Below are positions 8,682 to 63,883 of a DNA stretch of 64,000 nt, piece after piece. The stretch's first letter is position 1; each line of letters opens with the position of its first letter. The notes under the pieces are model-generated. The model was not told where the DNA came from, searched no databases, and saw only the letters and a program-made list of their open reading frames with translations. Position numbers and translations under genes: made by a program. Origin of the DNA: Pomacea canaliculata (lineage: Eukaryota > Mollusca > Gastropoda > Architaenioglossa > Ampullariidae); NCBI RefSeq assembly GCF_003073045.1, contig NC_037596.1:11839950-11903949 (forward strand), written 5' to 3'.

Positions 8682-8781
8682 NNNNNNNNNNNNNNNNNNN
8701 NNNNNNNNNNNNNNNNNNNNNNNNNNNNNNNNNNNNNNNNNNNNNNNNNNNNNNNNNNNNNNNNNNNNNNNNNNNNNNNNN
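8682..8781. other. assembly gap, 100 N
   Basis: Exactly 100 N, the usual placeholder for a gap of unknown length. Missing sequence here could include exons of gene 2. Confidence 0.99.
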
Positions 8782-9883: not shown

Positions 9884-10135
9884 GTAAGCCTAGGTTTCTC
9901 AACTCAGTCTCGCAAGTGTCCAGCGGCCTCGGAAATATGGACGATGGAGTTTTAGACATATAAGCCAGCACCATGGTTGTAGAATAAATGTGAATACTAG
10001 TGTCTTTGTCATCTGGAGAAAACTGGAAAAAGAAGTGAACTGTGTCACCTGGCTAACTGGAGATCCACCTAGCCTGAAATTTTGACGGTTGTAAATTTTA
10101 ACGACAGCATCACAGGGGAAAATTGGTCGTTAAAT
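9884..10135 (+). pseudogene. dead copy of the third Ig-like exon (gene 2 remnant)
   Basis: After an acceptor (tttgtttgtag) the sequence opens GKPRF, matching the RPQF start of the third Ig exon of gene 7 (57033-57320). Further down, GAAGTGAACTG, then CTGGAGATCCACCT, then AACGACAGC and GAAAATTGG line up in order with the gene 7 exon (VNC, TGDPP, EKDS, GNW). The reading frame is lost, with in-frame stops after about 26 codons and apparent small indels. It is therefore a decayed exon lying upstream of tail exons that are still intact. Confidence 0.7.
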
Positions 10136-11694
10136 AAATGTATATTGAAGGAGGACTTGTCAGATACATTTTTTTCCACGTTCGCCTCAGGTGATGGTTG
10201 TCGTTTAGTAGGTGTATGATGTGGTGTTAGTGCATGTTTCTGGGTGTTAGGGGAGCGTGTAATTGCATGCCCCACTACATATTTACAACTCTACTTTAAC
10301 GGAGAGATAAAAGTGTATCGGACAAATTACGGAAGACGCTCCGTCATATTAGGTTACGTTCTCGTGAAAAGAATAAATAAGTCTATATAACAGCCGATTT
10401 GTAGAAACGAAGCTTATTATGAGGATTTACAGTGGGTTTTTAGTGGCATGAGATTTGACTCCATGTGGTTGTCTTCGATCAGGTCCGTTTTAAACAGATC
10501 ACAATCTTTTTTTTCGTAATTTTGGCAAAACAATCATGAAAACGTGGCGGTAGTAAAATTTGGTTGATACTATTCTCATTCTTCTAATATCGTTGGTTTA
10601 AAAAATAATGTTTTAGATATTTCAACATCGAAGCTGCTTCATCATAAATCTTATAGGCGTCTATGACCTAATATTTGTTCAGTCATTACATCGAGGGACT
10701 ATAAAGTGCACTGTTACCAAATTTGATGTGTCAGCTTTGCATCACTGGGGGAGCTGGGTGTGTAGCTAAGCCATCACTAAGGGTTACTAACGATGTCTAC
10801 GTCTTTATTCTGCTAACGCACGGTAAGTCATTGCGAAATTGCTAACATATTTATCTCCTAATTTAAGGCGTTTGCACATCTCACGGTGTGATAAAGAGTG
10901 CTAGTTAGGCGCCACTAGTGGCATACTGTGTATCGATTGAATTTTTTTTGCAAAACGAAAAAACTATGTAGTACTAGATTTTTAGGCATACTTTTACATT
11001 CTCGGTATCTTTATATGTAGAAAAAATTGCCGTGGTGTACATGTTAACTTGGGATTCTAACAGAAAGGTTGCTATAAGACAAACGGTTACAACTAATAAA
11101 AACCTTTCGGAAAGATAGTAAAGAGCTCTGATTGAAAGGCAGTTACAGAATCAATTCATACGGGTTGTCCAGCTCTCTTCAGAAGAAACCCTTTGGTCCT
11201 GAATTGTTTGTGGGTATTTTTTTGTCGGGTGAATATGTTCATTTGTCTTCACTGGTGCACTTGAGCGCTCAACATGTGTTTCTTGGCTTGTTCTTTGTGG
11301 CGTGTTGTTCTACTTTAGTTTCCGATCACGCACGCACCAGAGGAAAACAGACTGAAAGTAAGTTATTTAATAATAGTTATCAATTTCTTATTAATTATTA
11401 TTTTGCCGTGGTTATTTCAACAAAATTGTTGACATTAAATTGCATAGCTCCATTATATGTTCTTTATTTGTTATTTACAGCTGAAATCAAATCGTTTTGT
11501 CACACTCGATAAAAAGGAGTGCATGTGTGGGTAAATAGCTTGGCAGTGTTCAAGTTAATATGTCACATGACTTTATTAAGCTTAAACCGACAGAACTTGT
11601 GAAATATACGCAAAGCAATGTGTCTATTGTCTTTTTTAAACTAAAATGTTTATCGTTTATTTTTAAACAAATTTTTCTGTTTCTTTTGTACTAG

Positions 11695-14600
11695 ACAGAG
11701 GGATCAGGTGAGTATTCTTTTTACAGAATTTTAATAGTATTTCCTGTAAATAATTTTTTTATATGTTGTTATAGTAACCTCCTAAAAGAAATACACTCCC
11801 TGATGATCGCTCTCTCATGTATCAACAAAAGTTTTGATGTAGAATTACATTTTATAATCATTAATCAGTATATACTGTATAATCAATTTATAGAGACTGC
11901 AATTGCATTCTGTACTAAAACGTGCATCTACACAAGTTGCCAATATACCAACACAGCCCACTCTCAGCAATGTTGAATGACTAAGTGTACATAGTGTTTC
12001 TGTACTGCTAGATATGTCTTTAAAAAAAGCCTACACAATAATGTGATTAAAGACAAAAAAGTCAACAATAGACTGTCAATACACCACTTGCTCATACAAT
12101 TATAAATAGCTGCCTGTGTATTTTCTCACAATCAAGCTTTACATTAGTGTTTTATGCTTTATCCTCCCGTGTGATAAGTGTTAAAAGGGCAACAGATAAA
12201 AGTGTCATTTATTATCAAAAAGCAAAGCAATTTCGTGGTTTCTTCAGTCAATATAAGAATCTAATTTATGATTTGAATATCTTCAACACAGAAACGTCCT
12301 CAGTGTAAACAAATAACTTCTTTACAGGGATAGAGATGAGAGCAGAGTTTCAACAGAAAATGTGCGGGAAATGTTTACACGTAAGTGGCTCACATACTTC
12401 TTAAACTGTAATAACATAGGCATTTTTTGGTGTGGTTGTTCCTTCCTTGTAATTCTTTCACATACTTCCTCCGTCTTTCTTTTATATTATGACCTTTTCT
12501 TCCCCTTTTTTTATCATTGTCGAGTACAGGGTGTCGCGTGTGGGAAGAGTGTAGTAAGGTTTCTGGTTCTTCTAAAAGCAACTTTTACAGGCCTTGCGTG
12601 CAAAGTTGGGGAATTTGTCATTCTCCAGCAGACTAATTGGCTTCTCCGGAAACGCAGAGATGTCCAGCGGACAATCCCAGCGGCACGAAATAGTTGATGA
12701 CTAGTTGCCAATCACCCTGTCTGTCACATCAGGTGGAAATAATATGGTTCCCCAATAACATCTTTTTTTTAACTGACCAAATTGACGTATAGTTATTTTT
12801 CTGCCTGCTGGGATCTGGAGGGGTTTGTACATCGTTGCAGAATTGGCATGAATCAGGGTTGGGCGGCCACTTTTGTATTTAGTTCGGGTGCGAAAATTTG
12901 GCGGTAGGAACAGGTATGTTTCGGAAAGATTTATGCCGGTTTGGTGGTGACGGTTGCCCTGAGAGTTATGGTACGTTGTATTCAAGTGTTGACGTGCAGC
13001 TAATTTTCCCTTCCAAAATCAGAGAAATAAGGAAACTTCGTTTTGAGCATTGAACTCCAAGTGTGCATGGTGTTTTGTAACAACTAACCCGTAGTTTATT
13101 GCGCGTGTGTTATTACTGCTTTTTTTACAATAAATTGCACCTTTGGATAATTGGAAGTAAAAGAACTCAAATAAGTGAATAGTACATAAAACGTATTTTA
13201 AAGAAAGGCACTTTAGTAAAAAGAATGAATACCCTTAGCTAATACAATACAATGTTTAACTGAATTGCGTTAATAAATAAATGGAGAACAAAATGTCTAC
13301 AAAAAGAAAGAGCATAGTATTTTTGTCATAATATTTTTAAAACAAATGTGCTAGCGTTTGAAGATCATAAAGAGGTTTTAAAGACAAATTAAGTGTACAC
13401 AGATTGAAGAACCTTTAACATTTATACATTAGTACTTAATTTCTCAGGAAACTCTTCAACAGAAGCAACCGAAAATGATTATACCTCCATGGTTGTCCAA
13501 GAAAAAATGCGCCAACAACAAGGTGAGACATAGTGATTATAACCTTCCCAGTGAGACAGAAAGGTGCAGAAAGGTAATCCCACTTAAAATAACTTCCATT
13601 TTTAGCACAAAAGCACATCGAGTCTTCCACAATAAAAGTTATTCTCATTCTTTTTCTTTATCCAGAGAGACTGTGGACAAAGTAACTCGCACGTCTCTCT
13701 AACACAAATTCAAAAAGAAGAAAATATTATACGAAATATTTAACTTGCATCCTAGAAACATACGCTGACTGTAACTGCTGTAAATGAAAATATTGTGACT
13801 TCTTTAACATCACTTTTATCTTCTTTAATGACTATTGTAATAGTTAACTGAAATTGAAATTTTCTCTCGATAGGTCCACATGTTGTTTACAAAAAAGAAA
13901 AATGCATGTTCTTAAATTCGCTGAAAGAAAAACATATATCAAAATACTAACTTTACTTAAAGTATGAAAAACTGAAAAGTGTAAGTCGGGAAAAACGCGA
14001 TGGACTTTTGTGTAGGAAATATCAGATAGCAACTTAAAGAAAAAAAAAACAAAAAAAAAAAAACAACATCCGAAGCAGCAATAACCTCCACTAGTTAGAT
14101 TCTGTACTTAGTAGGATAATGAATGATGATAGGTGATGCATTATTTTCGAATTTTTTACAGGTGTGAAGACTGATGTTGCTGAAGTCGCAAATGTTGGTG
14201 CATCAGCAGAGATAATGGTAAACATTCAGCTTGTTTCAGAAGGTGTTACACGGTCACTAATAGCGTTTTGCTTAATGTTTAATCCAGTCTACTGTGCATC
14301 GGATAGGTCACCCTGAAATTGTAGTACAAGAATATTTTGACATCATCCTGTCTGAAAATAAAACCGAAACGTAGATATGACTACTTAAGTAAATCTGTCA
14401 ACCATTAAAATATCGTTAACTTATTTATGGTTGCAATATTTAACTAAAAGTGAAACAAAAAAAGACAATATTTTATGAGTGGTTGAAACTAGCAGTTTGT
14501 TTCCTTGGCAGCACATTAACTCTTTGACAATTTATATTCTTGTTTATTATTTTTATGCACAGTACACTTTTGAGGCTAAAACAGACTCACATTAATCGTA

Positions 14601-15358
14601 TGATCTGTACGTTTTTTTCCTTTTATTTATTTTTTTGTGTGTGTGTTTTGTTGTTCTGCGTGCTTTTCTTGATAAGACTGACTTCATTTCCGTTCGCATT
14701 TAACAAGTAATATTTTAATGGTTCGCTCTACACTAGTGACCAACACATGGTGTGGTGACTAAATTGATCAGACGTGTTTAATTATCTTTCTAATGAGCAC
14801 TTAAGTGATAATGTTTGACTAAACTTCATTAGATAGTTTTGTTTCCATTGCATACTCGTAATGAGCGAATATCAAAACAATTTCATCTGCATAATCTCTG
14901 TCGAAATGGATTGATAACACATAGAACACGCTGAAAAATCAAATTAATGGATTCTTATACTTCTAGCTAAAACCATCTAATTTAAAATATTTGTAATATG
15001 AGTTTGTGACCTTCTAATATTTGAAACATGTGGACTAACTTTGCCTTAACAAGAAAGTTGACTGATTTTTATATTTGATGATCACAAACAATACCAAGAC
15101 AAGTAATGCAGAATGTAAGCAAATTTGCAACTTGTTTATTTACAAGCGTTGAGAAACACTGATAGTTATTATCTGATTTTATCTCACTTATAACAGGAGG
15201 CTTCGTCTATATGCCGCCATAAACGTTCAGATGGGTTGATTTACGGAGACCTGGACTTTACAACCACCAGTGTTAGTGATACAGTCAATGGCACCATGTT
15301 GGAGACTGAGTACGCTGCACTCAACTTCAATGCCATTGTTCCTCCACCACGTGACTAA
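11695..15358 (+). CDS. gene 2: cytoplasmic tail exons of a long-type receptor, ITIM/ITSM-like end; 5' part unresolved
   Basis: Five exons continue in one frame: 11695-11707, 12328-12380, 13448-13522, 14162-14217, 15197-15358 (stop). Their phases match the tail of gene 7. Two lengths are identical (53 bp versus 60817-60869; 56 bp versus 62769-62824). The 13-bp exon differs from its 19-bp partner by two codons. Gene 7's 189-bp tail exon and one of its two YVSA-type exons have no partner here. The last exon has LIYGDLDF, then TEYAAL 23 residues later, ending IVPPPRD. A possible membrane exon ends at 11357 (VFLGLFFVACCSTLV then basic residues, phase 1), but no clean acceptor or start was found for it. 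The Ig exon upstream is dead. Either the gene now uses an ectodomain I could not see, or a pseudogene retains an intact tail. Confidence 0.6.
12520..12990. other. GC-richer coding-like patch inside a gene 2 intron
   Basis: Several frames stay open on both strands, for example the minus ORF 12701-12985 and a plus frame running from an acceptor-like site near 12590 to a TAG near 12699. Base composition differs from the flanking AT-rich intron. The patch may be an inserted element or a decayed gene fragment. No family was recognised and no single frame can be preferred. Confidence 0.25.
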
Positions 15359-20302: not shown

Positions 20303-20321
20303 CTAGTTCTAGACTACCTAC

Positions 20322-21881
20322 ACTTGGCAAGAAGTGTCACTGATGTGTTCTTTTCCGAACCAGTTCCTTCACATCGAACAAGGGGCCAGTCATCTTGACA
20401 TCTGACGGTCACTGAATGTATGAGTTGTTCTTCTGATCTAGAAACATTTATTTCTTTTCCAGTTTTATCCAACAGGAAGAAGACAGTTTGAGGGTTTCCC
20501 TTGTCAAACGAGCAGGAAATGTTAACTTCTTTTCCCTCATTAATAAGATAGTTGCCATTGACCTCGTTTTTATCTATAGTGAAGCTTGAGACTTTGGGTG
20601 GATCTGGAAAAATAACAGATATCACACAGAATAAATCAACAACATTGTTACAGATGGAACACGTGACACCTAGCGTTTTATTTCATAATTTTGGTAAAAA
20701 ACAAAGTATGTTAAGTAAAAAAAAAATTGACACCCAGTTTGTTAATGACCCTAATCATACGAAAACACAAATACAGTGTTCAATTAAAACTTATTTAATT
20801 TCAGGTGTTAAACAAAGAATAAAAGAAATTATAGAGTCAAGGAAATATCCCTGTCCCCATGTGTGTGTGATGGATGCACAAATAAGGAGACAGCGATGAA
20901 AAACGAGGAGTAGTTAAAGAAAAGAATTAAATGTAAGACAGACAGAAAGAGATACTTACACAACACAGTAAGATTCTTTCGTATGAAGGTAGATGAATCA
21001 GAGTGTGTAGAAATCAACTCCCACTCAATCTGCACGTGAGAACGGTTCACTGTTCTGTTCAGCTCTGCTGGACCTGTCGGGCTGATGCACCGAACTGACT
21101 TCCCTGGTCTCTCAGTACACGTGTCATTCCAGTAGGTAATCGTCCCGTCATACTCTAGACTTCCGGTCTTCGTCCTGGTGTGAACAATTATTTTGTGTGA
21201 AGTATTCGACTCCTTACAGGTCGACATGTTCACCCAGAACGTCACGTGGAAAAAGTGATTTTCAACAACCGACAAGTCTTCTTCTTTAAAATGGTGAAAA
21301 GTCAGTTCAGCACCTACAATATACATTGTAAACAAACTGTTTATAAAAACTTTTATCAGAAACATAATTTATAGAACAACAAGCTTCTTTTCCAAAGTAA
21401 GTGTAATTCTAGAAAATAAATGTTTAGTTCATTAGCTAAAATTTCTGACGGAGTTTTAACGTAAAGTACGTTCAAGATTCTACATCTGCACAGTGATTAT
21501 GGTCATGAATATTTTTAGACTGCTTACTACATAAGTATGGTGTTAAAGAAGACCATGAAAGTCAAATATCTTGGCTTAAGACATTTTTTGCTATTAATAT
21601 ACATCGTAGATCAAGTCATTTAAAAATGAAAGAATATCATCAGTTTAGTATAATTTATAACATGTAAAGAAAGTAACAAAGCTGAAGAAAGAAATCTTAA
21701 ATAGCCTGACAGAAACTAAACAATCTGTTAGTATCAACTGATATGTAGATGTGTCGGGGTTATTTACATCTTCAGTTTGAAGATTAACAGGAAAAATAAA
21801 CTTACAGGCTTGCAGTGGAAGTGTTTGGTGCATCAACAACAAGACATGAGCGACACATGTGGTGGTTGAAGCTGGAGACAT
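20322..21881 (-). CDS. gene 3: secreted or truncated two-Ig-domain protein, 3' end unresolved
   Basis: Three exons on the minus strand, all ending in phase 1: signal peptide 21881-21806 (76 bp, the same length as in gene 7), Ig-like D1 21313-20960 (starts AELTFHHF), D2 20603-20322 (PPKVSSFTID to VTLLAKC). D2 is closely related to the second Ig exon of gene 7, sharing NEGK or DEGQ, KGNP, FFLLDK or FYLLDK, CxDDWPxVRCEG and SVTLL. D1 has many N-glycosylation sequons. An earlier in-frame Met exists at 21998, but the Met at 21881 gives the proper signal peptide. Without the gtaggt donor at 20321, the frame stops two codons later. No transmembrane exon was found downstream, so the product may be soluble, or its tail exons were missed or lost. 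Confidence 0.7.
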
Positions 21882-29502: not shown

Positions 29503-32500
29503 TCATTCAAACATGTTGTCGTTTCTTGGTGTGTCTTTCCTACAGAGCCGGATGTGGGATTGTTGACTGCAGGCTTTCTGCACCTGATTAAATGATGAGA
29601 TACTTAAAGTTTGACATTTGAAGCAGTATGAGTGAAACTAAAGGAGAGAAATGTGTATCTGGGAAAAGCCATGGGTACTTCTCAATGTGTGGGTTATAGT
29701 TTAGGGTAGGCTCTTTGTATAACTGATGCATTATATCATCTGTGTTTGAAGTTGTCTACAACTCTACATTACACTCGCAGACCAACACTTGTTTGAGATG
29801 AAACTATTTAAGGACAAACCATTTGAAGATAATTTCAAAATATTTTATACAGTATAATCTCAGAAATGGAGACTACCACTCACATTTTTATCCAAACGAG
29901 AATACCAACACCAACGATTAAAAGTATCACAAAGCCTCCAATAACAGCGCCGACAACACCAGCGACAATAGTGTTGTCCTTTGCTTCATTGACTGTGTCT
30001 GCAAGTACAACATCATGTAAGAACCAATCTCATCATAAGGTGAAGTGGGTTCAAGCATCAACCTTAGTCTAAGGGATGCAAACTGCTTTTGTAACTGCTG
30101 AGTGAAGCTCATTTTAAAATATTTTTTTCAAATTCTGGATAAATATCCCTTCTGATCTCGAGATCAATGCCTTTAATTATCGATTATCACCAGGATCAGA
30201 AGAGATCAATAAGGGTTAGGCTGTGCATGGATAATTTATACTGTGACCACCTCAGACAATGGACAGCTGGGTCCACATGCTACTTGGGTACATCTGTGTA
30301 CAAACATGACCAGGAATTTGATGTCTGTGTATGAGATTTTTGTAGCCCCTTCCTTAAACCAAAACAGCAGCAACAACCAAAAAAAAAAAAAAAAAAACAA
30401 AAAAAAAAAAAAAAAAACAAAACAAAAAGAAAAACAACAACAATCCACCCACCCCAAAAGAACAAAAACAAACAGAAATTGTGTATTTTCATAGATTTAG
30501 CAATGAACTTTACAAAGAAGTTTGCACCGAACTTTACACAGTTATTAGAAAAATATTTCGTACCTGACAAGATACTGACCTGCTGTTAATAACTAATTTA
30601 GTATTTTTCTCAATCTTGTTATCGTTTGCTAAGCTGACTTGAAATGAACCCTTTTAGGGTAATAAACTAAATTAATTTTAAAATTGAATTGAAATTAAAA
30701 TAGTAACAAATCAAAATAATAGAAACCTTCACTCAGAATTACCGCTCTTGAGTTTCTGTATCATCTGGTTCAAAAACATTAAAAACCAGAACTTGATATG
30801 TAAGCAAAGCTTTTTTGTGTGTATTTGTGAATATAAGAATATGTGTACATGTGAGAATGTGTGCATGTGTGACGGTTGGGGTCAGGGAGAGGTGATCCAG
30901 AACGTCGCCGCTAGGAACACGTCAGCCACTGACCCCTTGACCTATTGTAGTGTCTGCCTTCATGCTGTTTATCAATGCAAGACTATGTTTTAATGTTTGC
31001 TTTCATCTATACCCTTGTTACACTGTCAAAATATCTCACTAACTTAGTACGTACCTTTAACAGTTGTGATGCTAACTGGAGAGTTCAGGTCAGAGGCAGT
31101 GAGTCGGTCTGTTATAGTAATAACAGCATTAGAAATGATACTATGATAGGTATTCATTTTTTACGAGTATGTGTCAGCGTGCATGTGCATGTGTGAGGGT
31201 AAAGGTCAGGGAGAGGTGATCCAGAACGTCGCCGCTAGGAACACGTCAACCACTGACCCTTGACCTATTGTAGTGTCTGCCATCATGTTGTTTGTGTTTA
31301 TGTGCATCTTTCTTTCTCACTCTCTTTTCCTCACTTTTTCTCGTTGTCACAAATGTGTGTGTATCTATTAATATATCCAGAAAATTAAATTATAGTTCAA
31401 AGCTTTTTAAAAATATGCTACATCATATTTTAAAAGCTTTAACATCTGAAAATAAATCATATGAAATATTAAAATATTTTTATGTATGAATACAAAGCGT
31501 GACAAAATGTCTCACAAAAGTAATCTTACTTGGTAGGCTGAAGAATGTACCATCGTAATTTTAATTGTAATGATAATAACATATAATTAGTGCTAGGAGG
31601 CTATATAGTATTTGCTATCATCTGGTCAAAGAAGATCCCCAAGCATAACAAGAACTCACACTTTGAGATATCGCAGCGGATGGGTTGCTGATTTGCTGCA
31701 TCAACCTCGAATTCCCCAGACGACAGACAGTGTGCACCCTGATTTATTGAGACAGTGAAATACCTGGGTGGAAGAAGTTCACAAGTGTAGCCATCCACAG
31801 GGTCGCAGCGAAAATCCCCGGACTGCCAATCGCACTGTGCGATCACTTCTGGAACCAAGGACCCGCATTATTGTTCCTCTAGACCAAAGGGACACTGATC
31901 TGCTGTTCATGTCGACTAGAGCCACACAGTATCAAAGTTTCATTTTGCAGGCCTCTAAGGTCCATGTCTACCTTCTCTCTTTTGTTTTTGTTTTTTTCTC
32001 TGTCACCTTCTCGATGTTCATTGAGAAAGTGAAACAACAAACGTGTGTACGACACTTGTTGGTCTTAGATAACTGCTGATTTCATCATGATGCAAAATAA
32101 ATGAATGTGCTTATATCATGTAATGTTGAGTATGCGGGATTTTACCTTCTTCCTGTTCTTGTCCTCTGTAGGCAACAAAAAGTTCACTTTTCTCGAGTAC
32201 CACCTTTTCTTCAACCGTACAGTTCACCCTCCTTAGACACTGACCATCAAACTCAGCTTTGCACTTTTCTGTCGTACTTTCTGCAAGAAATTCTGAGCAG
32301 ATTCTAAATGCCATTTTCTACCTGTTTCATTAACATACAAAGTTTAAAAAACTTTAAACTTACACATACTGAAATATTATTTATTTCATTTGCAATGACA
32401 TGTTTACAAGAAAATCATCTTGTCACCCTCTTTATGGGAGGAAATAATTTGAAAAAGTTTCATTGTGAAGCCTTCCACAAATATGTTAGTGAACTGAAGC

Positions 32501-50384: not shown

Positions 50385-53300
50385 ATGAGCACGTTTATGA
50401 AGGTTTGCTGTGCATTTGTCATTCTTCTGAAGCTGATGAAAGGAGCGCTTTTGATGACGTGTAAGTAGTCACAAAGATAATTTAATTTTCTTGGCAGATT
50501 TATTTTAATTACAAGTTTTAATAATGAGTTTTAAGTTTTAATAACAAGTTTTGCCAATCATTAAAGCATTTAATCTAATAACAGATTTAATTCAAGAACC
50601 GAGGACAGAAACATTTGCAAAAATAATGCGAAAATTGATTTTAAAATGAAATGATTAAAATGATAAGATTAAATGACACTTCGAGAAGAAAGATAATTTT
50701 GATGTTATTTTAAGTTACGGACCATATAATTTTAGTTATTTTGACAGATTTAGGGTTGAAATGACATGTAGATCCAAAACATTTTTTGAAACTGATATTT
50801 CACATAGGTTTCGAGATACCAAGTGGCACTAATGTGTCCCTATGGTCGGCAAGGAAAACGTATCGTGAATAATGCCAGTTATGGGTTTCATCAATAGCTT
50901 AATTTTTTTAAATGGTGATTAAGCATTATACCAGCGGTTCTCAACCTTTTACTTGTGACGCCCCCCTGGCGAACAAAGGTACGTACGCGCGCCCCCCTTA
51001 GCCAGCAATGTAAGCTAATTTCACTAATACCGGTATAAGAAACTTTTAAAAAATGACCACCTTCGCGCCTCCCTTAGCCAGCAATGTAAGCTAATTTCAC
51101 TAATACCGGTATAAGAAACTTTTAAAAAATGACCACCTTCGCGCCCCCCTTGTAAGCAGGTCGCACCCCCCCCCCCTTCAGGGGGGCGCACCCCACAGGT
51201 TGAGAACCGCTGCATTATACTGTTGTTATGCAACATCAGAAGGGATATTATACTGTAATGAGAACAAATATATATATTTTATGAATGTAATTTATGAATG
51301 GTACTTCTCAAAGCAGTTACATGATGTTGTGTAGCATAAGTGAACGCGGCATACCGGCCTATAGAGAATGTTACACATATTGTCAGTTCTGCTTTTAATT
51401 TTGTCCTTTGGACATTGAGCACAACGCTTACGTTTTTCTTCTTTGACCAGTTTTTGGGGGTTGACATGATCTTTCCCTGATTCGAACAGGTCCTGATGGA
51501 ATATTTCTTTTCCTGTTTGTGTAATTTCCAATGAGCGCTTTTGATATCATTTGTCTGCACTCAAACTGGGATATCTTCTTGCATTCAGGATTGAATTCCT
51601 GGTTCATCTGCGTATAAACACAGTGAGTGTTTTTCACCGCTATGTACAAACAAATCGAAAACTTTTTGAAAGTAGTGCTTTACCTTTGACCTTCGATCAA
51701 CTTTATATGTAATCCACGAGATCGATGATCAGAGGCCGAATTCGAAAGTCCTATAAGTGTCGGGATTTCTTTTCAAAAACAGCTCTTCAGAATTTGTTTG
51801 GAAAGTGTTAGGCATTCCTTATCACTTCAAAGCGATTCTGAGGCATCACATTGGCAGCGTATAACACCTAAAGATTTGGTTCAGTGGACCAGTAGTCTCT
51901 CAAGGATGGAATCAAATATTATTACATTATACACTTTATTCCCAAGAACGCACGAATTTCTTGCGAATCAGTTTTGAAATGAATCTCCTTCTTCAACAGG
52001 TTGTCAGAGACGCGTTCAATTCACAATTTCACACTACTCGCACTCACTGTATACACACGTCCCAACACGTGTTTTTCCAATCATAAATCACACAGATTTG
52101 TCTAGGCAACGAAAAATTTTATATAACTCGACATTAAGCACACACACGCGTTACTGCGAACTATATATACAGTCTGAATGTCTTTCACGCCACGGCCTGT
52201 ATATCAAAGTTGACGATTGTTTTTCGAATAGTTCGTTAAAGTCCTAGTTACTCACACCGCACTGCCTGAAGTTATCGTCCGAGAAACCAAAAGTAAAACG
52301 TCCTGGTAAAATTCTCCCTTTCCCTGGTCCAGAAATTAAAAGTGCAGTCTTGGCATCACTTGACCGATGTGCACGAACAAAACTCTTAGGGAAACCACAT
52401 ATACGTTCCGGTTCTTAATAGGGGTAAGTGCTGTCTTGGCAGACACCTAGCTGACGACCAAGATTATATTCTCTGGGATCAACACACAAGATCCAAAGCG
52501 AACACTCCACACACTCCGTCCGCCTCTCGTCACTTCTCAATGCCGCCTGCAGCGGTTTCGTTGGGATTCCTCACTCCCAATGAGTCCCTCAGTAGTTCCT
52601 TGACTAGGCAAGCAGCTTAGTTCACTTATTACCGGTCCATGTACACGTACAGCAAGACCTCTTTCCCGCCTGTCTTTCCTATCTCTCGTCTCCCCGTCGT
52701 CTGCTGTCTTCCCAATAATTGTCAGTCCCCGTGCAATCTAAAATTACGTCATAATATGACGTCGGGTTCTGACGCGAAACCACCACGCAGCAAACACACT
52801 CATATACTGGTAAGGGCAATAATCTCTAACAACAGACAGGGGCAACAACCCCCTGTTTCCTAACACAGGTACGTTTCACTTTGCTAAACAGCAAGAACTA
52901 TCAAACCATAAAAATCTCAGGATTTTTAAAATATCTCAAAGGCATTGGGTCCTTCGTTTCAATCAGCATTTATTGTTGTATGTATTGTAAAAATAAAGAA
53001 GAATAAAGAAGCAGCATAAAAGTTCTCTTCTGGTCCGTAGGGACACATATGCCCAATAAAATTTGATTGCTCTGAGTTGTTTCAATCACTTTTGGGGTCC
53101 ATTTAAAAGTATGGAACAAATTGTTATGTTCCTTGGTCCTCAAACGGTTAAGTCATCACTTTGTGTAGAGTGTTCAGAGTTTTATCTTAAATGTAGTCAC
53201 TCTTTATGACTATTCAACAGGCGTCTGTATTACGTATCTTCATAGGCATACAATACAAGAGATTTTGTTTAATGGCACATTGTTTATTATTGGAAAAGGA

Positions 53301-56300
53301 TACAATCATAGTAAAATGCATATATCAGTTATTTTTAAAGGAAAATTTTAGTCAACCTGTGTCGTCCGTACTGTTGCTATTCTTAGGCTATTGCACACTA
53401 AAATAAAAATCTTGAAAACATTTATCCCTTTAAATTCACTAAAACATTACAGATATTCATTTCGAATCTTTACATTTTTATGAAAAATATTTTTCAGGTG
53501 GATTTTCTAACTTTACCGAAAGCCTGATTAAAGAAGAATACAGTTCTATCAATATCAACTACACCATCAACGTTACGGCAAGTCCTGATGTTACAGACAT
53601 GTTTTATGCTCAATATACGGTTTGTGAAGGAAACTCTTTGAAAACTCCATGTATATTTATTTACGAGAAAGACTTTAGCACCGAGTTTAAGAAGGACTTT
53701 AGTGGGAGGACAGGAGTCACCTGCTACTGGGAACAACGACACGTGAGCAGCTCTGTGGTGGCTTTAGACATCTACATCTCTCAGGTCGTCACCAGGTCAC
53801 TGAGTGCGATTATCCTCTCTACTGACAGAGGCGAGGCACCAAAACCTACTCGACTGATACGTGTTGAGGTGTTGTGTAAGTAATAATAAACTACCTTCTT
53901 GAAAATATTTATTAAACATTAGTTCGGCTTTCAGTATGTACAAAAGAGTATTATTAACATGTTATTTACATAATGGTGATCGGTGTAGGTTATATATTTG
54001 TGATTTATAACATGTAATGTTCAGTATCAATTGAAGTACTACTTTGTATATTAACGAGGACAGATGGTTGTTCTGTAAAATTCTCTTAGGGTGGCTGCTT
54101 TTAATCTTTGTACAGAAATAATAGAAACTACAACACGCGAGCGCACACAAAGACAGGGACACATACAGATTTATTACTAAAATAATCTGAAATAACGGTA
54201 CGAAAATTCCTTTTTTTTGTAAAAAGTTTTAAAAAGTGCGAAGCAGCTAAATAATAAGAATACCTTTAAAGGTCGCTACAGTCACATTACAATATATTTT
54301 TGAAACTATGTGGCTAAGAAACGTGTCATTCTCTGCTGAAACATTTGTCCCCATTTGTTTTCATTTAAGGATATCACACTAACTTCATAGTTTCTTCTGC
54401 GATGCTCTGAGAGGTCATTCCATTCATGAATAGTTTCTGTTCTTCCTTTCTGCTGTAATCTTTTACATATTGTGCGTTGCTGCTTTAAATTTTAAAGCTG
54501 GGCATGCACTTGTATCACTTCAACTTGCATGTTTTTATCCTCGTCAGGAGCTTATTTTGTTTTTCTTTTGGGGGGGGATGTAGTATTCTTAAAAAAATAT
54601 CCTCTATTTATAGGAAATTAACAATACAGCAATACATATATACAGTAATAGTTTACATCTCAGTCCGAACATTTCGGTACTTTACAACTTATCTTTTTGC
54701 GATGTCGCCCGCCTCACACATTGCTCCAAGTTCCCAGTTCACAATCTCACAGTTCTTTTCTCACGACATCAATACCATAGGTCCAACCTCGCGTTGGCGT
54801 AAGCATCCAGTCAATTACATATATATACACTGAGTCCAGCAAACAACAACTTTCTTACATCTCCTCGAGACTGACTTCCAGTCGCTAACACACATCTTTC
54901 TATTTATCCGAGGATGAGTTGCCTTTTTCTACATGTAGGATGTCCCTTGTCACCCTTTGATCTCGGGCAGAGTCAGGGAAGTCACAGTTACTAAAACTCT
55001 TTACTCCCTGCCGTGTCCCGAGTCAACGGTCAGGTTTATGGGCCCCACCTTGACTATTCCGTCAGGTCATTAACAGGAGCGGTGGTACCTTGACCAGTGC
55101 ACTGTTGGTGGTCCAAACTCTATAAAAACATGACTAAAAGTAGAAAATACGTTTTCTGCAACACCCCTTTTTCTGGGGGAAAAATTGTTAATGATAAAGA
55201 ACAAGTTTTCAAAATCAAAATTTATACATATTGAAAATGACATAAAATGGATTGGCACACATTTAATTAAATCTCAACATTCCAAAGATCACCACCAACA
55301 TATAATTTTTATCATAAAAAAAGTGTTACAACTTAAACCATTTCAGCAAAAATTTCAATTTTACTAAGACTACCCTTTGTCAGTATACAACAACAAATAA
55401 AGATAAATGTGGTCAAAACATGATAGTATGCATTCTTACAAGCTAGTTGTCTGCAGCCCATACTATGATGGATGTGACCAAGTTCTATAGTGCAGCTTTC
55501 TCCGTTCTTTCTTTGTGCTGTGAGTGTCTGCTGTGTGTAGACGTTTACTGCGATAGGTGTGACACGGTGCATATATTGCAGTTTTTGTGTTCTCTTTGTC
55601 TCTTTTCTCTTACTACCACGGGTATCTGCTGTGTGCAGCTGTTATACATCTGAAATTCATTAAAATAGAGAGAATAGCATAAATGCATGCAATATATTAC
55701 TGTGTTAGTTTTTCCTTTCTGTCGTGTGTGTATGTGTGCAGATCCACCCAATGTCACGAATCTGACTGTGGACGGGGGCGATAATGTCATCATCGATGAG
55801 GGCCAGGTGGTCAGTGTCGCCTGCTTCTTTGAGAAGGGCAATCCAGCAGGTTTCTTTTATTTGCTGGATAAACATGGAACGAAGCTGAATTCCTCTAGTT
55901 CTGAAGGACACCTTAGCTACTCTCTTACTGCCCGGTGTGAAGATGACTGGCCAGTAGTCAGGTGTGAAGGCAACGGGTCGCAACATAATAGGTCTGTGAC
56001 ACTACTCGTCAAGTGTAAGTAAACAAACTTAATGTCTACACGTATCTTACACATTAATGTGATACTTTTATTGCTTCTTTATATGGGCATCAAGAGTGTG
56101 CGATCCACCTTATGCACAAGGCTTTGTGGACATGGTTCTGAAGAGGGCATACCTTTGTGTGTGTAAGAGTTTTTTGTATGTCTGTGTTTATTACTGTGTG
56201 AATTTCTTCCTTTAAAATGCAAATTGTATGGCCGTTGGCTGTTATGTAAAGAAAAAAAATGGACTGTAAGGGATTTTAAAAGTATGTCCACAGTGTTTAT

Positions 56301-59300
56301 ACACAAGAGATATCCAGAGTAGATATAAGCCCTACTTAGGATTTGCTTAAAATGACTAAACCTTCAGCAAAGCAGTGTGTTTATACAAGGAGGCAAAGAG
56401 CTGACAAGATTTGCAAACAGAAAACATGCTAACGAGCTGCAATAGTGTGGTGTGACCGTTGCGATAGAAGTGTGGCCTGTTTCGATATTTGTTGATTTGA
56501 TATTTGTTGCTCTTTGTTGACTATCTTTATTCTTTATATTGTCACTTTGTGCAGGGAGCGCCCTATGTAACACGATCGTTGTTTAAATTTCTTGAAAGGA
56601 TGCACACCTAGTGCAAGTGTGGCGTGATAATTACCAAAATTTTCTAGCTCATATTTTATACGATCAGTATGCATGGAAAGAATATTTAAGAGATATGCTT
56701 GAAGATCATTTATATTGGAAAATAATATCCTCACCTAGACAATGAATGACATTTTTCTCGAAAATATTTTTTAAAGACGTGTTTTTATAATATAAAGATT
56801 ACTTTCAATACATTAGACTTACAACTACACGTTTTTATTAGACTTTGGTATTTGAAAAGAATTTGGCATCAAAGATTTTAGTGTTAAAATGAATTTAGAA
56901 AAAATCTTACACCGTAAATACATTTTAGAATGAAACGATCCTTATTGGTTCATACTTTTAGCATACATTTCGTTATGTTTAAAATACGGAATAACCTAAC
57001 TTCTAAGAACGTTTCTTCTTTTAATTGCCCAGGTCGTCCTCAGTTTGTTGACAAGTCAACGAAAATTGTTAATCCTGCTGTTGACACTGTAACGTTTAGT
57101 ATCAAGGCCCACACCACAGCAGTCAATGGATGTCTCCTGACATCTCTCACTTTACAACATAACAACACGAGGGAAGTGAACTGCACCCTTACTGGGGATC
57201 CACCTGACCTCGTCCTGAGTCTTCAGCTCGAGAAAGACAGTTTCCGTGGAAACTGGACATTGACACTAAGCAATGACTGGGGTTCTTCCAACACAACTTT
57301 CATTGTCTTAGATGAGTCAAGTAATTACAATTTTTAAAAAATACTAATTATTTAGTGGATAATTTTTTGCCAGTTGTTCAAGTTCACGAAATAGATTTTA
57401 GACATGAGTAATAAAATTTAACTTGTATATTTGCTTTGTCGTGCAATATCGTGATGTGAGCGGTTAAGAGGCACAGTTAGCAACTATAAACAATACCAGA
57501 AATGGTACTTGAACAATACTCTAAACAAAAATTCCAAATGCAACATTAAATAATACGTGCGAGTTACACTCTTGACTGCACTGATATGTTCAGTCAAGAA
57601 CACATTCTTATCAAAAACTGGATTTCACTTCTCATTTATTAGTGGCGAAAATGTGCGCTTGTGATGGGTGGGGTTAGGAAATGTCCATTTTTTTAAATGA
57701 TACAATGTATGGCATTCCAGAACCACAATATATATATAAACAATATTTATTAAAATCATTCGTCAGACATCCTTTCCTTAAAGTGCTAACCAACACAATT
57801 TACCAGTAACCGTTCGTAGTTTAGTATCTGAGTAATGTACTCTACTTGCATTTTCTAAATAATAATATTTATCCATCATCATCATCTTTTCAAATATGAT
57901 AAACGCTTTATTTTTATATACATCGTGAAATTTTTATAAAAAGTATTCTTATAAATTAACCGAAGTTATTTCTGTTTTCTTATTTTTTTTTAAACAATTA
58001 CATTGGCCAAATATAGTATGATGTATGCATAGTAAATAAAACTTACGTGGTAAGCTATTAATGACAATATACACGAAAAAACCAATTGTGCACAGCAGGA
58101 ACTAGAATTCTTTTGTTGTTTCAGTGCCAGAGCGATCTTCAGGAAAAACAATAAACATCAAACTGGTGTGCGGTATTGTGGCTGCTGTTGTTGTGATCGC
58201 TGTTGCTGGTACTGTTGCCATTGAAAAGGTCAAAAAGAAGAAATACGGTAAGAATATTTAAAAGTAGTGGTAGGCAAAAAAACGTTAGTCATTTCCCTCT
58301 CTTGAAATATTACAATATAATTTGTGTCTTGATTTCAATAATCATTTTTTTGCCGAAAAGTAACGCAGTCGTATTTACCACATGTAACCATTTGTAATAC
58401 ACGTCTAAACCATTATTAATTATACTAAACTACTATATATGGTTGATTTTGCGGTGATGATGACGCTAACGACGATGATAATCGCAACGACGACATTGAC
58501 AGATATTATCTTAAAAAGAGCTTAACACTTTAACACAGCGGTTCTTACGGCGTGCTTACAAGGGGGGGGGGCGAAGGTGGTGATTTTTTAAAAAGTTTCT
58601 TATACCGGTATTAGTAAAATTAGCTTACATTGCTGGCTAAGGGGGGCGCGCGGACGTACCTTTGTTCGTCAGGGGGGCGTCACAAGTAAAAGGTTGAGAG
58701 CAGCTGTTATAACACATATTAACTATTCAGAAAAATGGTTATCACACGTTGTTCGAAACGTCTTTTTAAAACTACTAAGTACTTTTTTTTCCATAATAGC
58801 ACTTGCACTGAGAAGCGTCACTATAAAGGTTTTTTTTCCAACATGAGTGAAGCAAATATTTGCATATACTTTTGCATTCGAGCTTACTTAGTAACTACTT
58901 ACCTCATTTTCTTTACAAAAACCAGAAACCATTTCACCCCGATAACAGGTTTCATTTGTACGTCCTTGATCCTTCATTAGCTGCAGGGACTTGGGTCTGG
59001 TTACACCAAGAGTATCTACCCAAGACCTTTAGACTGATTAAGGGTCATAAGATGAGAAATAGAAAAAAATGTCCTCGTGTCTGGTTTTCACAGGGCTAGG
59101 ACTTTAGTGGTTCACTTAGACGTCCATGTGTTCATGGGTGACCATTGACTGCCTAACTCTTCCCTGAGCTGTTCTAATTTATGTTGTGTTATAATTAGGT
59201 AGTTTCTAATGCAATTTCATTGGCTTCGTTGGGTCACCGGTCACTAGCTCCAGCCTAAAAGATAGAATAAATTTTTTTTTCGATCTTATATAGCAAACCA

Positions 59301-62300
59301 GTAGAAATGGGTTTCGATCTACAAGATGTTGCAGTCTTAATGATTGATCGTAAGGACAGAATATAGAATTCGGTTTTCCTAAAACTATTAGCCACCTGCT
59401 GTTATAAACTTATAAACATCACATATATTATTGCTTCATGCTAAGATAAAAAAAATCATTTTTAAATCAATGAATTTTGAAGGTGGCTACGTGCTTTCCG
59501 CCCTTAGTTTATCCCTTGTAAAATTACTAAGTATGATTGGATGTGTAAAACGCATTTATCCACTCGGATATAGGATCAAAGCTCTGCACACAAAAAATAT
59601 AAACAATCCCACAGTCAGCTCTACAACCAACTTAATCTTTAGTAGACAGATAAGATCATTAAAAAGTGAGAAGATGAAGAGTCGAAAAGTCATCAGAATT
59701 GTACTCCTGATTATGCAAGGTCTTTGTTTGAAAATTTCGAGACTGCATTTGAAGGCTTTTGATGTAAACACCGTTCGAAGAGACAAAGAAAAACAAGTCC
59801 AAGCATGGCGCCTGAGGATGAAAATAGCGGTCGAATTTCTCCCGTCTGATGGATGGCACAGAGAGAAAGAATCACAAGTAGTAAGGCATCAATACCTAGC
59901 CAGGTATTCTGGGGCAAGGCCGTGAAGACAACGGCAGCTCAACCAGTAAAGCTCAGTTTGAATTTGTTGATGGAACCATTGTCGGACACAAAATGATCAT
60001 AGATGTTATCTTCACACTCAATCAATGACATGGTGTTGCGTGTGTGTTTCCTGTTGCACCAGGTTGAAATCATTTCAGAATAATTTTAGACGCTTTAGAT
60101 GATGATTGGAAGGAAAAATAAAATTGAAAATTCACTTTACCGAGGATATAATTAAATTATTATTAAATAATATGGTCAATAAGATGCTACTTTATGTAGC
60201 GCAGATAACCTCAATAAAACTTTCCGTCTAGATATTAGAAATGGTATTAAAAAGTCCCAAGGTGGTGTTTAGGTTCTGCCTTTTGCATAAAGATGGTATA
60301 ACGGCCTTATAAAGGCATTTTATTTTGGTAGTATTGTATGATCTTTGACTGTTCGACATTATTTACAATTGTACTGCTCTTGTTCTCAGATATTTAGTAA
60401 ATAATTTAATTTCATGTATAAATTGTTTATCAATTAAGAGACCTGATTGTGTTTAGTTTTATTCTGATATTGCTTTGCGTTTGTGTTTCCAATGGAATGT
60501 GGCCAACAGGATCAGACGACACAAATAGGTATGTATTTTTTCACTTCATGTATTCATTCACAACATAAAGACTTACTTGGATGATTGCTGAATTAATGAA
60601 TGCGCCCAATTACTTCTATCTGCTGCATGACTTCCTTGCTTGCCCATTGTCTGGCTGGAGAGGTACATGCGAACAGGTGGATATTAGTAATAAAATTTAT
60701 AATTCATTTTACAATCTTATGCAATTACCAGAATAAAAGCCTTATATTTTTTTAAATAAAACAATATTTATAATTTTCACTCTTTAAACATACAATATTT
60801 TTTAATCAAACTGTAGACATACAGTTGGAAACAGAGGATCGAATGATAATCGACGAGGAAGTTGTGCAAGTAAGTGATTATAAACTATATTATCAGTTCT
60901 ATCTTTATTACACTAAATAATTACATTTTTTAAAGTTCATTTTTTTGTTTTGCTTTCTCAAATAAGAGCAAAAAAACGAGTTCCAAGAAAGAAATATAAT
61001 TATGTTCTCTAACTCCCAGGCTCTTTGTCAGGAGAACGAATCTTACAAGGCTACAATCGTCAGTACGGCTTTTTTTAGACTGCAGGATATTTAGTCTTTT
61101 AAAACAGAATATCCCTTTTCTCTGTAGGTATGATTGTCAATGATGTGTATGAAACGAGTGGAGCGGTTAACAACAACAACCACACCATCCACACGTGTAG
61201 TCCTCCCACCCGAGACCCTCTTTCTCCACTGACCATGTCGGAGATGCCAGCTCGCCCTCCACGTTCACAGCACGCGCAGACACGAGTCACTGCTGCTGAT
61301 GTTCATCATGTTTCTTGTGAGCTATCATCGGATATTTATTGTCACTTTGGCTTCAGTAGGACTTTAATGAATCACTTTGATGTAACTTTTAAATGAATGC
61401 ATAGGATATCTTGGAAGAAAAAAAATTGTTTTTAAGCCTTACATCTATAAAAAGAATAAAGATAATAATCATAGCTGGTCCTTATTTATCGCCTTTGTTG
61501 TTGATAGGAAAAAAAAGTAATGAACATGTCTACGTTAAGCCACAATGCCCTTGCTTTCTTTGACATATCTCTGTTGTGTTTGGCCTTTCTTTCATTAGCA
61601 ATTGTGACATTAAGCAACAAACCTTCTTTTTCATATATATATTCAGTCTCAGATAAACATGCGGGACTCCGTGGATAAAAGCATGTATGGAAGGAAAAAG
61701 ACACAGACAAAGCAACAAAAAAATCTTAAGACAGAGTTATAGTAGCAGTAAAGAAATTCTTTGTCTGTTGACAAAAGCATGGTCGGATTTCATGGGAAGT
61801 TTTCGCTGTTTCTCAGGTAACGCATCATTGGGAGCAGAAGAGAATACCTACGTGTCTGCACCTGAGGTTCGAGAGAAAAAACGATTAAAAAAACAAGGTG
61901 AGACAAACAAAACAATGTTCATTTCAAACTTTGTATTAAACTTGACAAAATTTAAGAGTCTGGCTTTCCAGATTTACAAATCTAGCCCAATGAGCTTGAA
62001 GCAAAAATAAGGTAACATAAAATGCACAATAACAAAAACTCTTTTCGGTTGTCAGTTGGTGCTGATGACTCACAGGGTGACACCTATGTTTCGGCAAGAG
62101 AAGTTCGCAAAGAAAAGAAGAGAACACGAGAAGGTTAATATTAAATATTAGAGAGAATAGTGTCAGAGGCAATAACAAAGAAAAAAGACGGACGGACGGA
62201 TGCACGTGCGAGTGAGCGGAAAAATGAATGAATGAAGCAGTGTGCTGGCGGACGAGGTAATACAGACGGGTTGACGGAGAGACAGTAAGGACATAGTTGA

Positions 62301-63883
62301 CTTTTGAATAACGGCTTCATGGTGAACAACTTTCTTGTTTTGTTCTATGAAATAAGAGCCTGTTCTGTGCAATACCACTTGCACTTGCCACCAGCTCAAT
62401 GCTTGATTCAAAGAAGGAACTAGGAAATATTTCCTATCGTCAACACTCTAGATAATCTGTACTTAGACTAGGATCATGTCCAATGAGAATTTTAAGTTCA
62501 GGGTGCATTTGATATTTTGTATGTAATAAAATGACACATCAATATTATCATCAACATCATCATCGTCATATTTCTTCTTCTTTCTGTTTATAGCTGTTTG
62601 AAAACGTTAACGATCGAACCTGACATGGCCAGTAAATACTAAATAAATACAGAATATAGATATGTCATTCTAGAATGGCCGGAAACATTTGTAGAAGTAG
62701 AGGAGTTATTTAAGTGATGCTTGTTGTATTATAATATATATTTCAGTATTTATTTTAATGTTTTGCAGAATTGAAGGCACCTCTTGCCAAGGTCAGCGAT
62801 GAAGCCCAAACAACAATGTCACTGGTGAGCATACACTCAATTCCATTGCGGATGGAATTATGAGGTCTCGGGCCTGATTAGCTTTCTATCAGGACTTTTG
62901 GTCAGGGTTAACATCCCTAACCTTGAGCGTTGTAACGTTCGTTGAATTTCGAAGTCGTTGTCAAAGCCGCCATCAAGACAGTACTTAGACTTTAACCTTT
63001 ACTCTCACAAAATTGAAACCGTGACTCGTTCATGTCTTCTTGCTGCAAGAATTGAAAGAATATTTAACTTCCTTGAACCAGACACAGAACATGAGGAGTG
63101 CTCTACAAGTATTTCACAGAGAATTAGTATTTCTGAGAATACGTGACATCAATCGAAAATCCTAAATGCATCTCAAAATAGTGATTTCTTGAAATTGGAG
63201 GCTGCTGGCATTGGCAACGAGTCGAAAACATACTTCTCCTATAATTGACCCTCTCGTGGTTAAGGACCACAGCACATTCCACTTACTGTAAAACAACAGG
63301 GACTGGCAATAGAATAATATGAAGTCTCCAATAAAAATTGGTTAGTTCATCGAGTTCAGCGACGATTGAATTGTGACAAAAATTGTAAATGTGGTGATGG
63401 ACGATTTATGAGTGCGCGGCTGTTTTCACTAAGGTTTACTTAATAATTATACGTCTACTCACCCACGTTTTACTCTTCCTTGCCCACTCCTTCACTTCTT
63501 CACGCATGCATTCCTTTACATCGTGCATGCATCTATTTGTATTAATTAAGATACTTGTCACTACGACAAATATCGCTTAACCTGTGATTAGTCCTGTCAT
63601 CTTTTTTTGTAGATTCAACCACTGTAATTAAATTAGAACACAGAAATATGGCTTTTACGATGACAAGATATTTGATTTATTATTCATGTAACAGGAGAAG
63701 CCATCTTGTAGCAGAAACGCTGATGGATTAATTTACGGAGACCTAGACTTTACAACCACAAATTTGCCCAAGGACATCATCGGCTCCACAACAAAAACTG
63801 AATACGCCGACATCAAAGGCACCGCCATCGTCCCCCCACCCCGAAACTACAAACAAAAAATAAACAGACCGAAGAAAGAGTAA
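50385..63883 (+). CDS. gene 7: three-Ig-domain inhibitory-type receptor with ITIM/ITSM-like tail, complete
   Basis: Twelve exons join in frame to 600 aa: 50385-50460, 53498-53875, 55742-56014, 57033-57320, 58125-58247, 60510-60528, 60817-60869, 61128-61316, 61817-61897, 62056-62133, 62769-62824, 63695-63883. Signal peptide 1-25; Ig-like D1 26-151, D2 152-242 (CEDDWPVVRCEG), D3 243-338 (GNWTLTLSNDWGSSNTTF), each on one phase-1 exon with many N-glycosylation sites; membrane helix about 352-372 (VCGIVAAVVVIAVAGTVAI) then a KKKKY stop-transfer. The tail of about 225 aa has Tyr411 (DVYETS), a duplicated exon pair with NTYVSAPEVREKK (Tyr478) and DTYVSAREVRKEK (Tyr504), then LIYGDL (Tyr552) and TEYADI (Tyr575). 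These last two fit ITIM and ITSM patterns. Expected to sit in the plasma membrane and recruit SH2 proteins such as SHP phosphatases; this and the immune role are inferred. The weakest donor is gttaat after 62133. Ligand unknown. Confidence 0.85.
50932..51212. mobile_element. hAT-type miniature inverted-repeat element with perfect target duplication
   Basis: 281 bp with terminal inverted repeats CAGCGGTTCTCAACC and GGTTGAGAACCGCTG, flanked by identical 8-bp copies of CATTATAC (50924-50931 and 51213-51220). This is the target-site length and end sequence style of the hAT superfamily. An internal unit of about 76 bp (AGCCAGCAATGTAAGCTAAT onward) is present twice in tandem. No coding capacity. 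It lies in intron 1 of gene 7. The perfect duplication suggests a fairly recent insertion. Confidence 0.9.
51290..51660 (-). mobile_element. piggyBac-like transposase relic
   Basis: The minus strand keeps pieces resembling the C-terminal end of piggyBac transposases: KKISQFECRQMISKALIGNY followed by basic residues, then in another frame a Cys-rich stretch (RCAQCPKDKIKSRTDNMC, later CRVHLC) like the C-terminal zinc-binding domain of that family. Frames are broken and most of the transposase is absent. No TTAA-flanked ends were identified. Family assignment rests on motif memory only. Confidence 0.5.
51661..53497. other. rest of gene 7 intron 1
   Basis: No exon found. 52400-52870 is GC-richer, contains a palindromic ACGTCATAATATGACGT and could be an element end or regulatory patch. 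No family was recognised and it may belong to the piggyBac relic. Confidence 0.3.
58536..58706. mobile_element. hAT-type miniature element, second copy (inverted, degraded)
   Basis: About 171 bp, reverse-complement relative of the element at 50932. It shares the ACCGGTATTAG / TTAGCTTACATTGCTGGCTA core and the ends CAGCGGTTCT and GAGAGCAGCTG. It has only one internal unit, where the other copy has two. The flanks CTTTAACA and TTATAACA suggest a worn 8-bp target duplication. It lies in an intron of gene 7. Confidence 0.75.
59670..59996 (+). pseudogene. unidentified processed-pseudogene-like fragment in a gene 7 intron
   Basis: One plus frame reads as convincing protein with about two interruptions: EDEESKSHQNCTPDYARSLF, then MAPEDENSGRISPV, then SIPSQVFWGKAVKTTAAQPV and on to SDTK. 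A second frame over 59930-60030 is also protein-like (KAQFEFVDGTIVGHKMIIDV), suggesting a frame shift. There are no introns and no link to gene 7. The 164-codon ORF in another frame here (59431-59925) is probably its shadow. Family not recognised. Confidence 0.4.

Follow-up and report, generated by a model that had tools for sequence, protein, structure and literature searches.

The pairing of an immunoreceptor tyrosine-based inhibitory motif (ITIM) with an immunoreceptor tyrosine-based switch motif (ITSM) has been described for inhibitory receptors, and in PD-1 and BTLA the two are spaced by 25 residues, a distance held to permit bivalent binding (PMC8631942). Human PD-1 carries VDYGEL and TEYATI (PMC7710690), and in bony vertebrates the PD-1 consensus, [IV][DE]YG[EV]L[DE]F together with [TV]EYATIx[FY], is best understood as one combined motif, in a comparison of PD-1 tails that is confined to vertebrates (PMC12151841). 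Here we analysed 64,000 nucleotides of Pomacea canaliculata (NC_037596.1, 11,839,950–11,903,949, GCF_003073045.1; this whole stretch is the window, and positions are counted within it), an apple snail and intermediate host of Angiostrongylus cantonensis (PMC6187997). A gene on its + strand encodes a receptor of the immunoglobulin (Ig) superfamily, and the last coding exon of this gene (63695..63883) holds an ITIM, an ITSM-type motif and the stop codon. With ITIM defined as [SIVL]xYxx[IVL] and ITSM as TxYxx[VI], a motif scan places LIYGDL at 63728..63745 (Tyr codon 63734–63736) and TEYADI at 63797..63814 (Tyr codon 63803–63805), 23 residues from tyrosine to tyrosine, as a preliminary description of this DNA had reported. 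In the best-supported reading, to which we give somewhat better than even chances, the product would be an inhibitory receptor that docks an SHP2/Corkscrew-type phosphatase bivalently through both motifs.

The rebuilt gene consists of a signal-peptide exon, three ectodomain exons, a membrane exon and seven tail exons ending at 63883, and the 11 exons between 53498 and 63883 are spliceable in one frame, with AG/GT borders and matching phases. The signal-peptide exon (50385..50460, MSTFMKVCCAFVILLKLMKGALLMT..) ends at a phase-1 donor, GTAAGT, and is 76.9% identical to residues 1–25 of a close RefSeq paralogue, P0006 (handles of this kind denote family proteins). Domain D1 (53498..53875) was placed by splice borders and phase and has modelled beta strands; D2 (55742..56014) and D3 (57033..57320) follow from splicing and RefSeq alignment, and the structure predicted for P0006 shows an Ig fold for each. 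The next exon (58125..58247) encodes a transmembrane helix, predicted from hydropathy, splice phase and the structure model, and the basic stop-transfer EKVKKKKY. A 19-base tail exon (60510..60528; GSDDTNR in the RefSeq product) is required for the frame: without it, exon 60817..60869 (HTVGNRGSNDNRRGSCA) reads DIQLETED.. and reaches a stop in the next exon, while RefSeq uses the frame HTVGNRG. Further tail exons supported by splicing are 61128..61316, which contains MIVNDVYETSG and PARPPR and agrees with RefSeq, as does 60817..60869; 61817..61897, with a first TYVSAxEVR unit; 62056..62133, with a second such unit resembling the first; and 62769..62824 (ELKAPLAKVSDEAQTTMSL). All lie on the + strand.

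RefSeq LOC112567776 isoform X2 (P0001, 541 amino acids), retrieved by a protein search with residues 370–600 of the joined product, equals the gene model from model Met35 to the end, with all 541 residues identical, D1 included. This identity establishes the organism as P. canaliculata, and it shows the Ig exons and the last exon connected in the public annotation. The arrangement of three Ig-like domains, membrane helix and basic stop-transfer given in the preliminary description holds by splice model, hydropathy and the P0006 structure. Tyr552 and Tyr575 of the 600-residue product are Tyr493 and Tyr516 of LOC112567776 X2. Signal exon, single helix and basic residues predict a type I protein with the motifs on the cytoplasmic side, where ITIM-bearing receptors have theirs and where the ITIM of Siglecs lies. 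The neighbouring tail exons 61817–61897 and 62056–62133 contain two units of similar sequence, TYVSAPEVREKK and TYVSAREVRKEKK, which looks like an exon duplication; the tyrosine of the first unit fits neither ITIM nor ITSM here. The pattern PxRPxR, represented by PARPPR, is kept in all four proteins having exon 61128–61316, and PARPPR also fits the SH3-binding pattern PxxPxR.

Across the six stop-to-stop frames of the window, ITIM matches number 166 on the + and 176 on the − strand and ITSM matches 16 on each. The two in this order, ITIM first and 10–40 residues apart, occur once on the + strand and never on the − strand. When the 229-residue tail was shuffled 200,000 times, a lone ITIM arose in 20% of cases and an ITSM alone in 6%, and hence neither motif has much meaning by itself; the ordered pair at 15–35 residues arose in 0.12%. 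Conservation within the family is weightier evidence than this rarity.

The family comprises 28 Pomacea proteins: 27 matches at E ≤ 0.01, plus P0003 from the search with residues 370–600. The receptor cluster proposed in the preliminary description is thereby supported, and seven members bear the tail (P0001–P0004, P0025, P0027 and P0028; the model of P0028 lacks helix and D2 and may be faulty). Both tyrosines are kept in all seven, as are GLIYG, Leu at pY+3 and Phe at pY+5 (counted from the phosphotyrosine), so that LIYG[DE]L is found throughout; Thr-Glu precedes the second tyrosine in six. Neither result named in the preliminary description as refuting it was thus observed: the last exon is joined to the Ig exons in RefSeq, and no tail-bearing homologue has lost the tyrosines. 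Spacing is 23 residues in every tail, with a gapless linker. Over columns filled in at least five of the seven rows, mean pair identity is 0.91 for the GLIYGDLDF block, 0.66 for the second motif and 0.30 for both the linker and the remaining tail, which makes the ITIM block the best-conserved part. Upstream of the motifs (P0001 columns 340–486) there are up to 103 gap characters per 150 columns, a contrast with the linker that is merely illustrative because many of these gaps are missing exons. Judged by these alignments, constraint acts on both motifs and on the distance between them, in a family where the tail comes and goes. Homologues outside Pomacea were found in none of three protein searches (4 matches at E ≤ 1, 2 at E ≤ 10 and 27 at E ≤ 0.01), a weak absence because these searches missed known members: that at E ≤ 0.01, which scored the 7996 candidates sharing most words, overlooked P0003, and that with the last exon (E ≤ 10) returned P0001 and P0002 and missed the five other tail-bearing proteins.

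A second last exon of this type lies in the same window (15197..15358, + strand, identified by similarity; LIYGDLDF and TEYAAL). Of 40 codons compared between the two exons, 14 are unchanged, 10 show synonymous and 16 non-synonymous differences; the non-synonymous (dN) and synonymous (dS) divergences are 0.31 and 1.15, and dN/dS is about 0.27. Within the 13 codons DGLIYGDLDFTTT of the ITIM block, all four differing sites are synonymous, while the second motif differs in protein (TEYADI versus TEYAAL). Motifs arising by chance, in a tail under little constraint, would account for a lone ITIM, as the 20% of shuffles shows; rarity of the pair in those shuffles, conservation of the ITIM block in seven tails and purely synonymous change there between window copies make this explanation, already disfavoured, highly improbable.

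Judged by their residues, the snail motifs resemble those of PD-1 more than those of Siglecs. Among human ITIMs, that of PD-1 is reportedly unique in having Gly at pY+1 (PMC8631942). All seven snail tails agree with the PD-1 ITIM consensus at pY+1 (Gly), pY+3 (Leu) and pY+5 (Phe); TEYA occurs in five (P0001, P0002, P0003, P0025 and P0028), P0027 reads LIYGELDF and P0003 reads TEYATI. The order is also that of PD-1 and BTLA, at 23 instead of 25 residues, and Ala at pY+1 and Ile at pY+3 of TEYADI correspond to preferences reported for the C-SH2 domain (PMC12151841). This comparison was made after the sequence was known and with few other receptors, and carries an unquantified look-elsewhere cost. 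Differences are evident too: the snail receptor has extra tail tyrosines, ITIM pY+2 is Asp in six tails (Glu in the other), and the complete consensus [IV][DE]YG[EV]L[DE]F is absent. In addition, the PD-1 ectodomain is a single IgV domain, whereas the snail receptor has three Ig-like domains. Because ectodomains differ in this way and cartilaginous-fish PD-1 has Ala rather than Gly at ITIM pY+1 (PMC12151841), we interpret the likeness as convergence towards the SH2 domains of SHP2-type phosphatases; an old shared origin with PD-1 is unlikely on the same grounds, and independent origin is much likelier than ancient descent. Hence, where the preliminary description proposed a Siglec and PD-1 signalling plan of independent or ancient origin, we retain the likeness to PD-1, seen in TEYA and in the Gly and Phe at ITIM pY+1 and pY+5, and the independent origin; the Siglec comparison fits less well in its motif residues and stands as analogy only. 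By analogy with PD-1, Glu at pY−1 of the second motif argues against switching through SH2D1A-type adaptors (PMC12151841).

When tail classes were assigned by hydropathy and motif, the 28 proteins fell into seven long-tailed members (including P0028 despite its helix-less model), five short-tailed membrane members (P0006, P0007, P0008, P0015 and P0026) and 16 without clear membrane helix, some of which may be truncated gene models and one of which, P0023, was placed there though a hydrophobic stretch ends its model. Over D2–D3, the identity of P0001 is 87.0% with P0006 (184 columns) and 81.0–84.8% with P0007, P0008 and P0015, all of them short-tailed, and these close relatives are without the motif pair. 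The same comparison, which covered all long-tailed members except P0028, gave 85.9% for P0002 and 37.2–53.0% for P0003, P0004, P0025 and P0027. Thus, related ectodomains with and without a signalling tail form a pattern as in paired receptor families, with P0001 and P0006 as nearly identical ectodomains on a long and a short tail. A D2–D3 tree, in which all rows were kept and P0026, P0027 and P0028 are long branches, needs eight changes for the three tail classes, and strongly supported branches force at least four for the long-tail class. Shuffles gave values as low as observed in 62 of 500 cases for long tails, 108 of 500 for short tails and 46 of 500 for none; the classes are neither strongly clustered nor strongly scattered. 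Two short-tailed members, P0008 (LOC112568070) and P0015 (LOC112567434), have in common a different tail, PTDGSRxxYE[NS]VRGN, with the tyrosine motif YENV or YESV.

From these features we infer the following course of events. The receptor, a single-pass member of a family of Pomacea Ig receptors whose conserved tail is present in some proteins and lacking in close relatives, would bind a ligand through its Ig domains, and a Src-type kinase would then phosphorylate Tyr552 (in LIYGDLDF) and Tyr575 (in TEYADI). The structure model predicts a disordered tail, and therefore the motifs are predicted to be accessible. At their fixed distance, the two phosphotyrosines would jointly engage both SH2 domains of one SHP2/Corkscrew-type phosphatase, which, docked and opened at the membrane, would dampen activating signals, probably in phagocytic haemocytes. 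The PD-1-like motif pair, together with its absence from close relatives whose ectodomain is nearly the same, points to a family of immune brakes that arose in snails on their own. If the tail does dock a snail SHP2-type phosphatase through both motifs, it offers an independent test of which PD-1 tail residues are dictated by the phosphatase, and it means that paired-receptor-like families, with tailed and short-tailed members on a common ectodomain, evolve in a mollusc. A bolder statement is that a mollusc independently evolved a bivalent SHP2 docking tail of PD-1 grade (Gly at pY+1, Phe at pY+5, TEYAxI and fixed spacing) inside a diversifying paired-receptor family, so that SHP2, rather than vertebrate ancestry, would set the detailed grammar of the PD-1 tail; we offer it tentatively and regard it as rather doubtful.

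Several observations weigh against inhibition by bivalent docking, against the earlier interpretation or against the likeness to PD-1. The tail is missing from 21 of the 28 proteins, which weakens the earlier interpretation, and the seven tails are paralogues from one species and not independent. An ITSM, claimed in the preliminary description, is present and conserved as TEYADI here and as the strict pattern in five tails, and is not strict in the other two (NHYAQI and TEYAAL). Residues pY−2 and pY−1 of the ITIM are Leu-Ile in all seven, not [IV][DE] as in PD-1, and the Phe at pY+5 of the second PD-1 motif is present in just three tails (P0025, P0027 and P0028) and absent in this gene. On the activating side of a paired family, no charged residue (D, E, K or R) was found in the 19-residue helix core of any of the five short-tailed members; an activating partner with a charged membrane residue was thus not seen, nor one with an immunoreceptor tyrosine-based activation motif (ITAM), a pattern at which no search was aimed. 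A Pomacea orthologue of Corkscrew/PTPN11 would presumably supply the phosphatase. Docking need not mean inhibition either, because SHP2 can also promote ERK signalling. Finally, YGDL and YADI also fit the endocytic signal YxxPhi, and both motifs might instead serve in sorting, with the receptor a scavenger type that they direct into endocytosis. Sorting would leave unexplained the invariant Leu-Ile before the first tyrosine, Gly at pY+1 and Phe at pY+5, as well as the Thr-Glu of six tails and the constant spacing of 23, and we consider it quite improbable. Taken as a whole, the earlier interpretation is partly supported.

Among molluscs, the Siglec homologue CgSiglec-1 of Crassostrea gigas presumably carries an ITIM. 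Like the snail receptor it is a mollusc Ig receptor, and it restrains phagocytosis and apoptosis, both of which rise upon its blockade; it differs in that two I-set Ig domains are described for it (PMC5877582). ITIM tails have been published for Botryllus FcoR and for Hydractinia allorecognition candidates, which resemble the snail family as invertebrate receptors with ITIM- or ITAM-type motifs, and FcoR is likewise a clustered multigene family (PMC12065747). However, the FcoR ectodomain combines a V-type Ig domain, a sushi domain and two C2 Ig domains (PMC12065747), and FcoR includes members with a hemi-ITAM (hemITAM), of which none was seen in the snail family, where the ITAM pattern was not searched. 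Because of these ITIM tails and the inhibitory oyster homologue, the kind of receptor is not new. A review of apple-snail immunology mentions ITIM, IgSF and Siglec nowhere (PMC9178244), and among the papers listed from the open-access literature, where subscription papers are mostly absent, no title or abstract opening described this Pomacea family, which does not prove absence.

An output of the opposite sign also has parallels. The tyrosines may dock an SHP2/Corkscrew-type phosphatase or adaptors with a positive, ERK-type output, in an activating or developmental receptor: SHP-2 is required for ERK activation below growth-factor receptors (PMC6823243), a published oyster Ig receptor with an ITAM signals via ERK (PMC11999971), and further adaptors could bind at P0001 Y419, the first-unit tyrosine, which aligns with a tyrosine in all seven tails, or at the conserved PxRPxR. 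As an ITIM/ITSM pair at this spacing is known from inhibitory receptors (PMC8631942), we hold such an output to be unlikely, though less so than endocytic sorting.

The structure predicted for the P0006 ectodomain (mean predicted local distance difference test score, pLDDT, 82.4) clearly shows three Ig folds, and a structure search with it gave 520 PDB matches at E ≤ 0.001, the best 50 of which contain Ig domains as judged by title. Top structural matches, among those listed, are IgLON, DIP, SYG-2 and nectin, which would suit a neuronal or adhesion receptor whose Ig domains act in cell contact; we rate this role, rather than an immune one, as improbable, at slightly less than endocytic sorting. 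Siglec and PD-1 were not prominent in the fold comparisons of this ectodomain, which says little. Siglecs are defined by an N-terminal V-set domain with a sialic-acid-binding arginine (PMC5877582), and identity to SIRP-alpha and CD33-type Siglecs is 11%, with a generic fold match. At E ≤ 0.1, Pfam recognizes Ig_C17orf99 in 14 of the 28 members and Ig_2 in 10; a rough joining of this protein's ectodomain and helix that preceded the splice model matched no Pfam family at E ≤ 1, and a PDB sequence search with the 28-row family profile gave DSCAM as the single match (E 0.098). At E ≤ 10, a PDB search with the last exon gave four matches; each is a chlorophyll a-b binding protein (best E 0.78), and we rejected them as chance.

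Other family sequences lie elsewhere in the window. Downstream of a D3-like stretch (9856–10198), which is broken between frames and contains stops, another group of tail exons, also flanked by splice borders, extends to 15358: 13448..13522 (NDYTSMV) and 14162..14217, both on the + strand and assigned to the paralogous copy by similarity and splice borders, precede the second last exon described above. The gene upstream of that exon looks damaged, and 9856–15358 may represent a gene copy in decay. The tail exons there share 94.7–100% identity with parts of P0028 (C0Q70_12346), and D1 of P0028 is at best 80% identical to any window sequence. On the − strand, 20317–21377 encodes D1 and D2 of another member, and a tblastn search of that strand below it showed neither a D3 nor a membrane helix nor a tail. 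The segment 24690–25127 is a D1-like family stretch with an in-frame stop. A further member probably starts at 487–606 (− strand; 77.5% identity to residues 1–40 of P0024) and runs out of the window. An assembly gap of 100 N occupies 8682–8781. A possible separate gene for a small membrane protein lies at 2518–5406, with a signal-like MAILYLLSFLVFHASYVNG and a helix near 4358–4440, and a cysteine-rich stretch at 3063–3263 weakly resembles 31733–31858 on the − strand (E 0.008).
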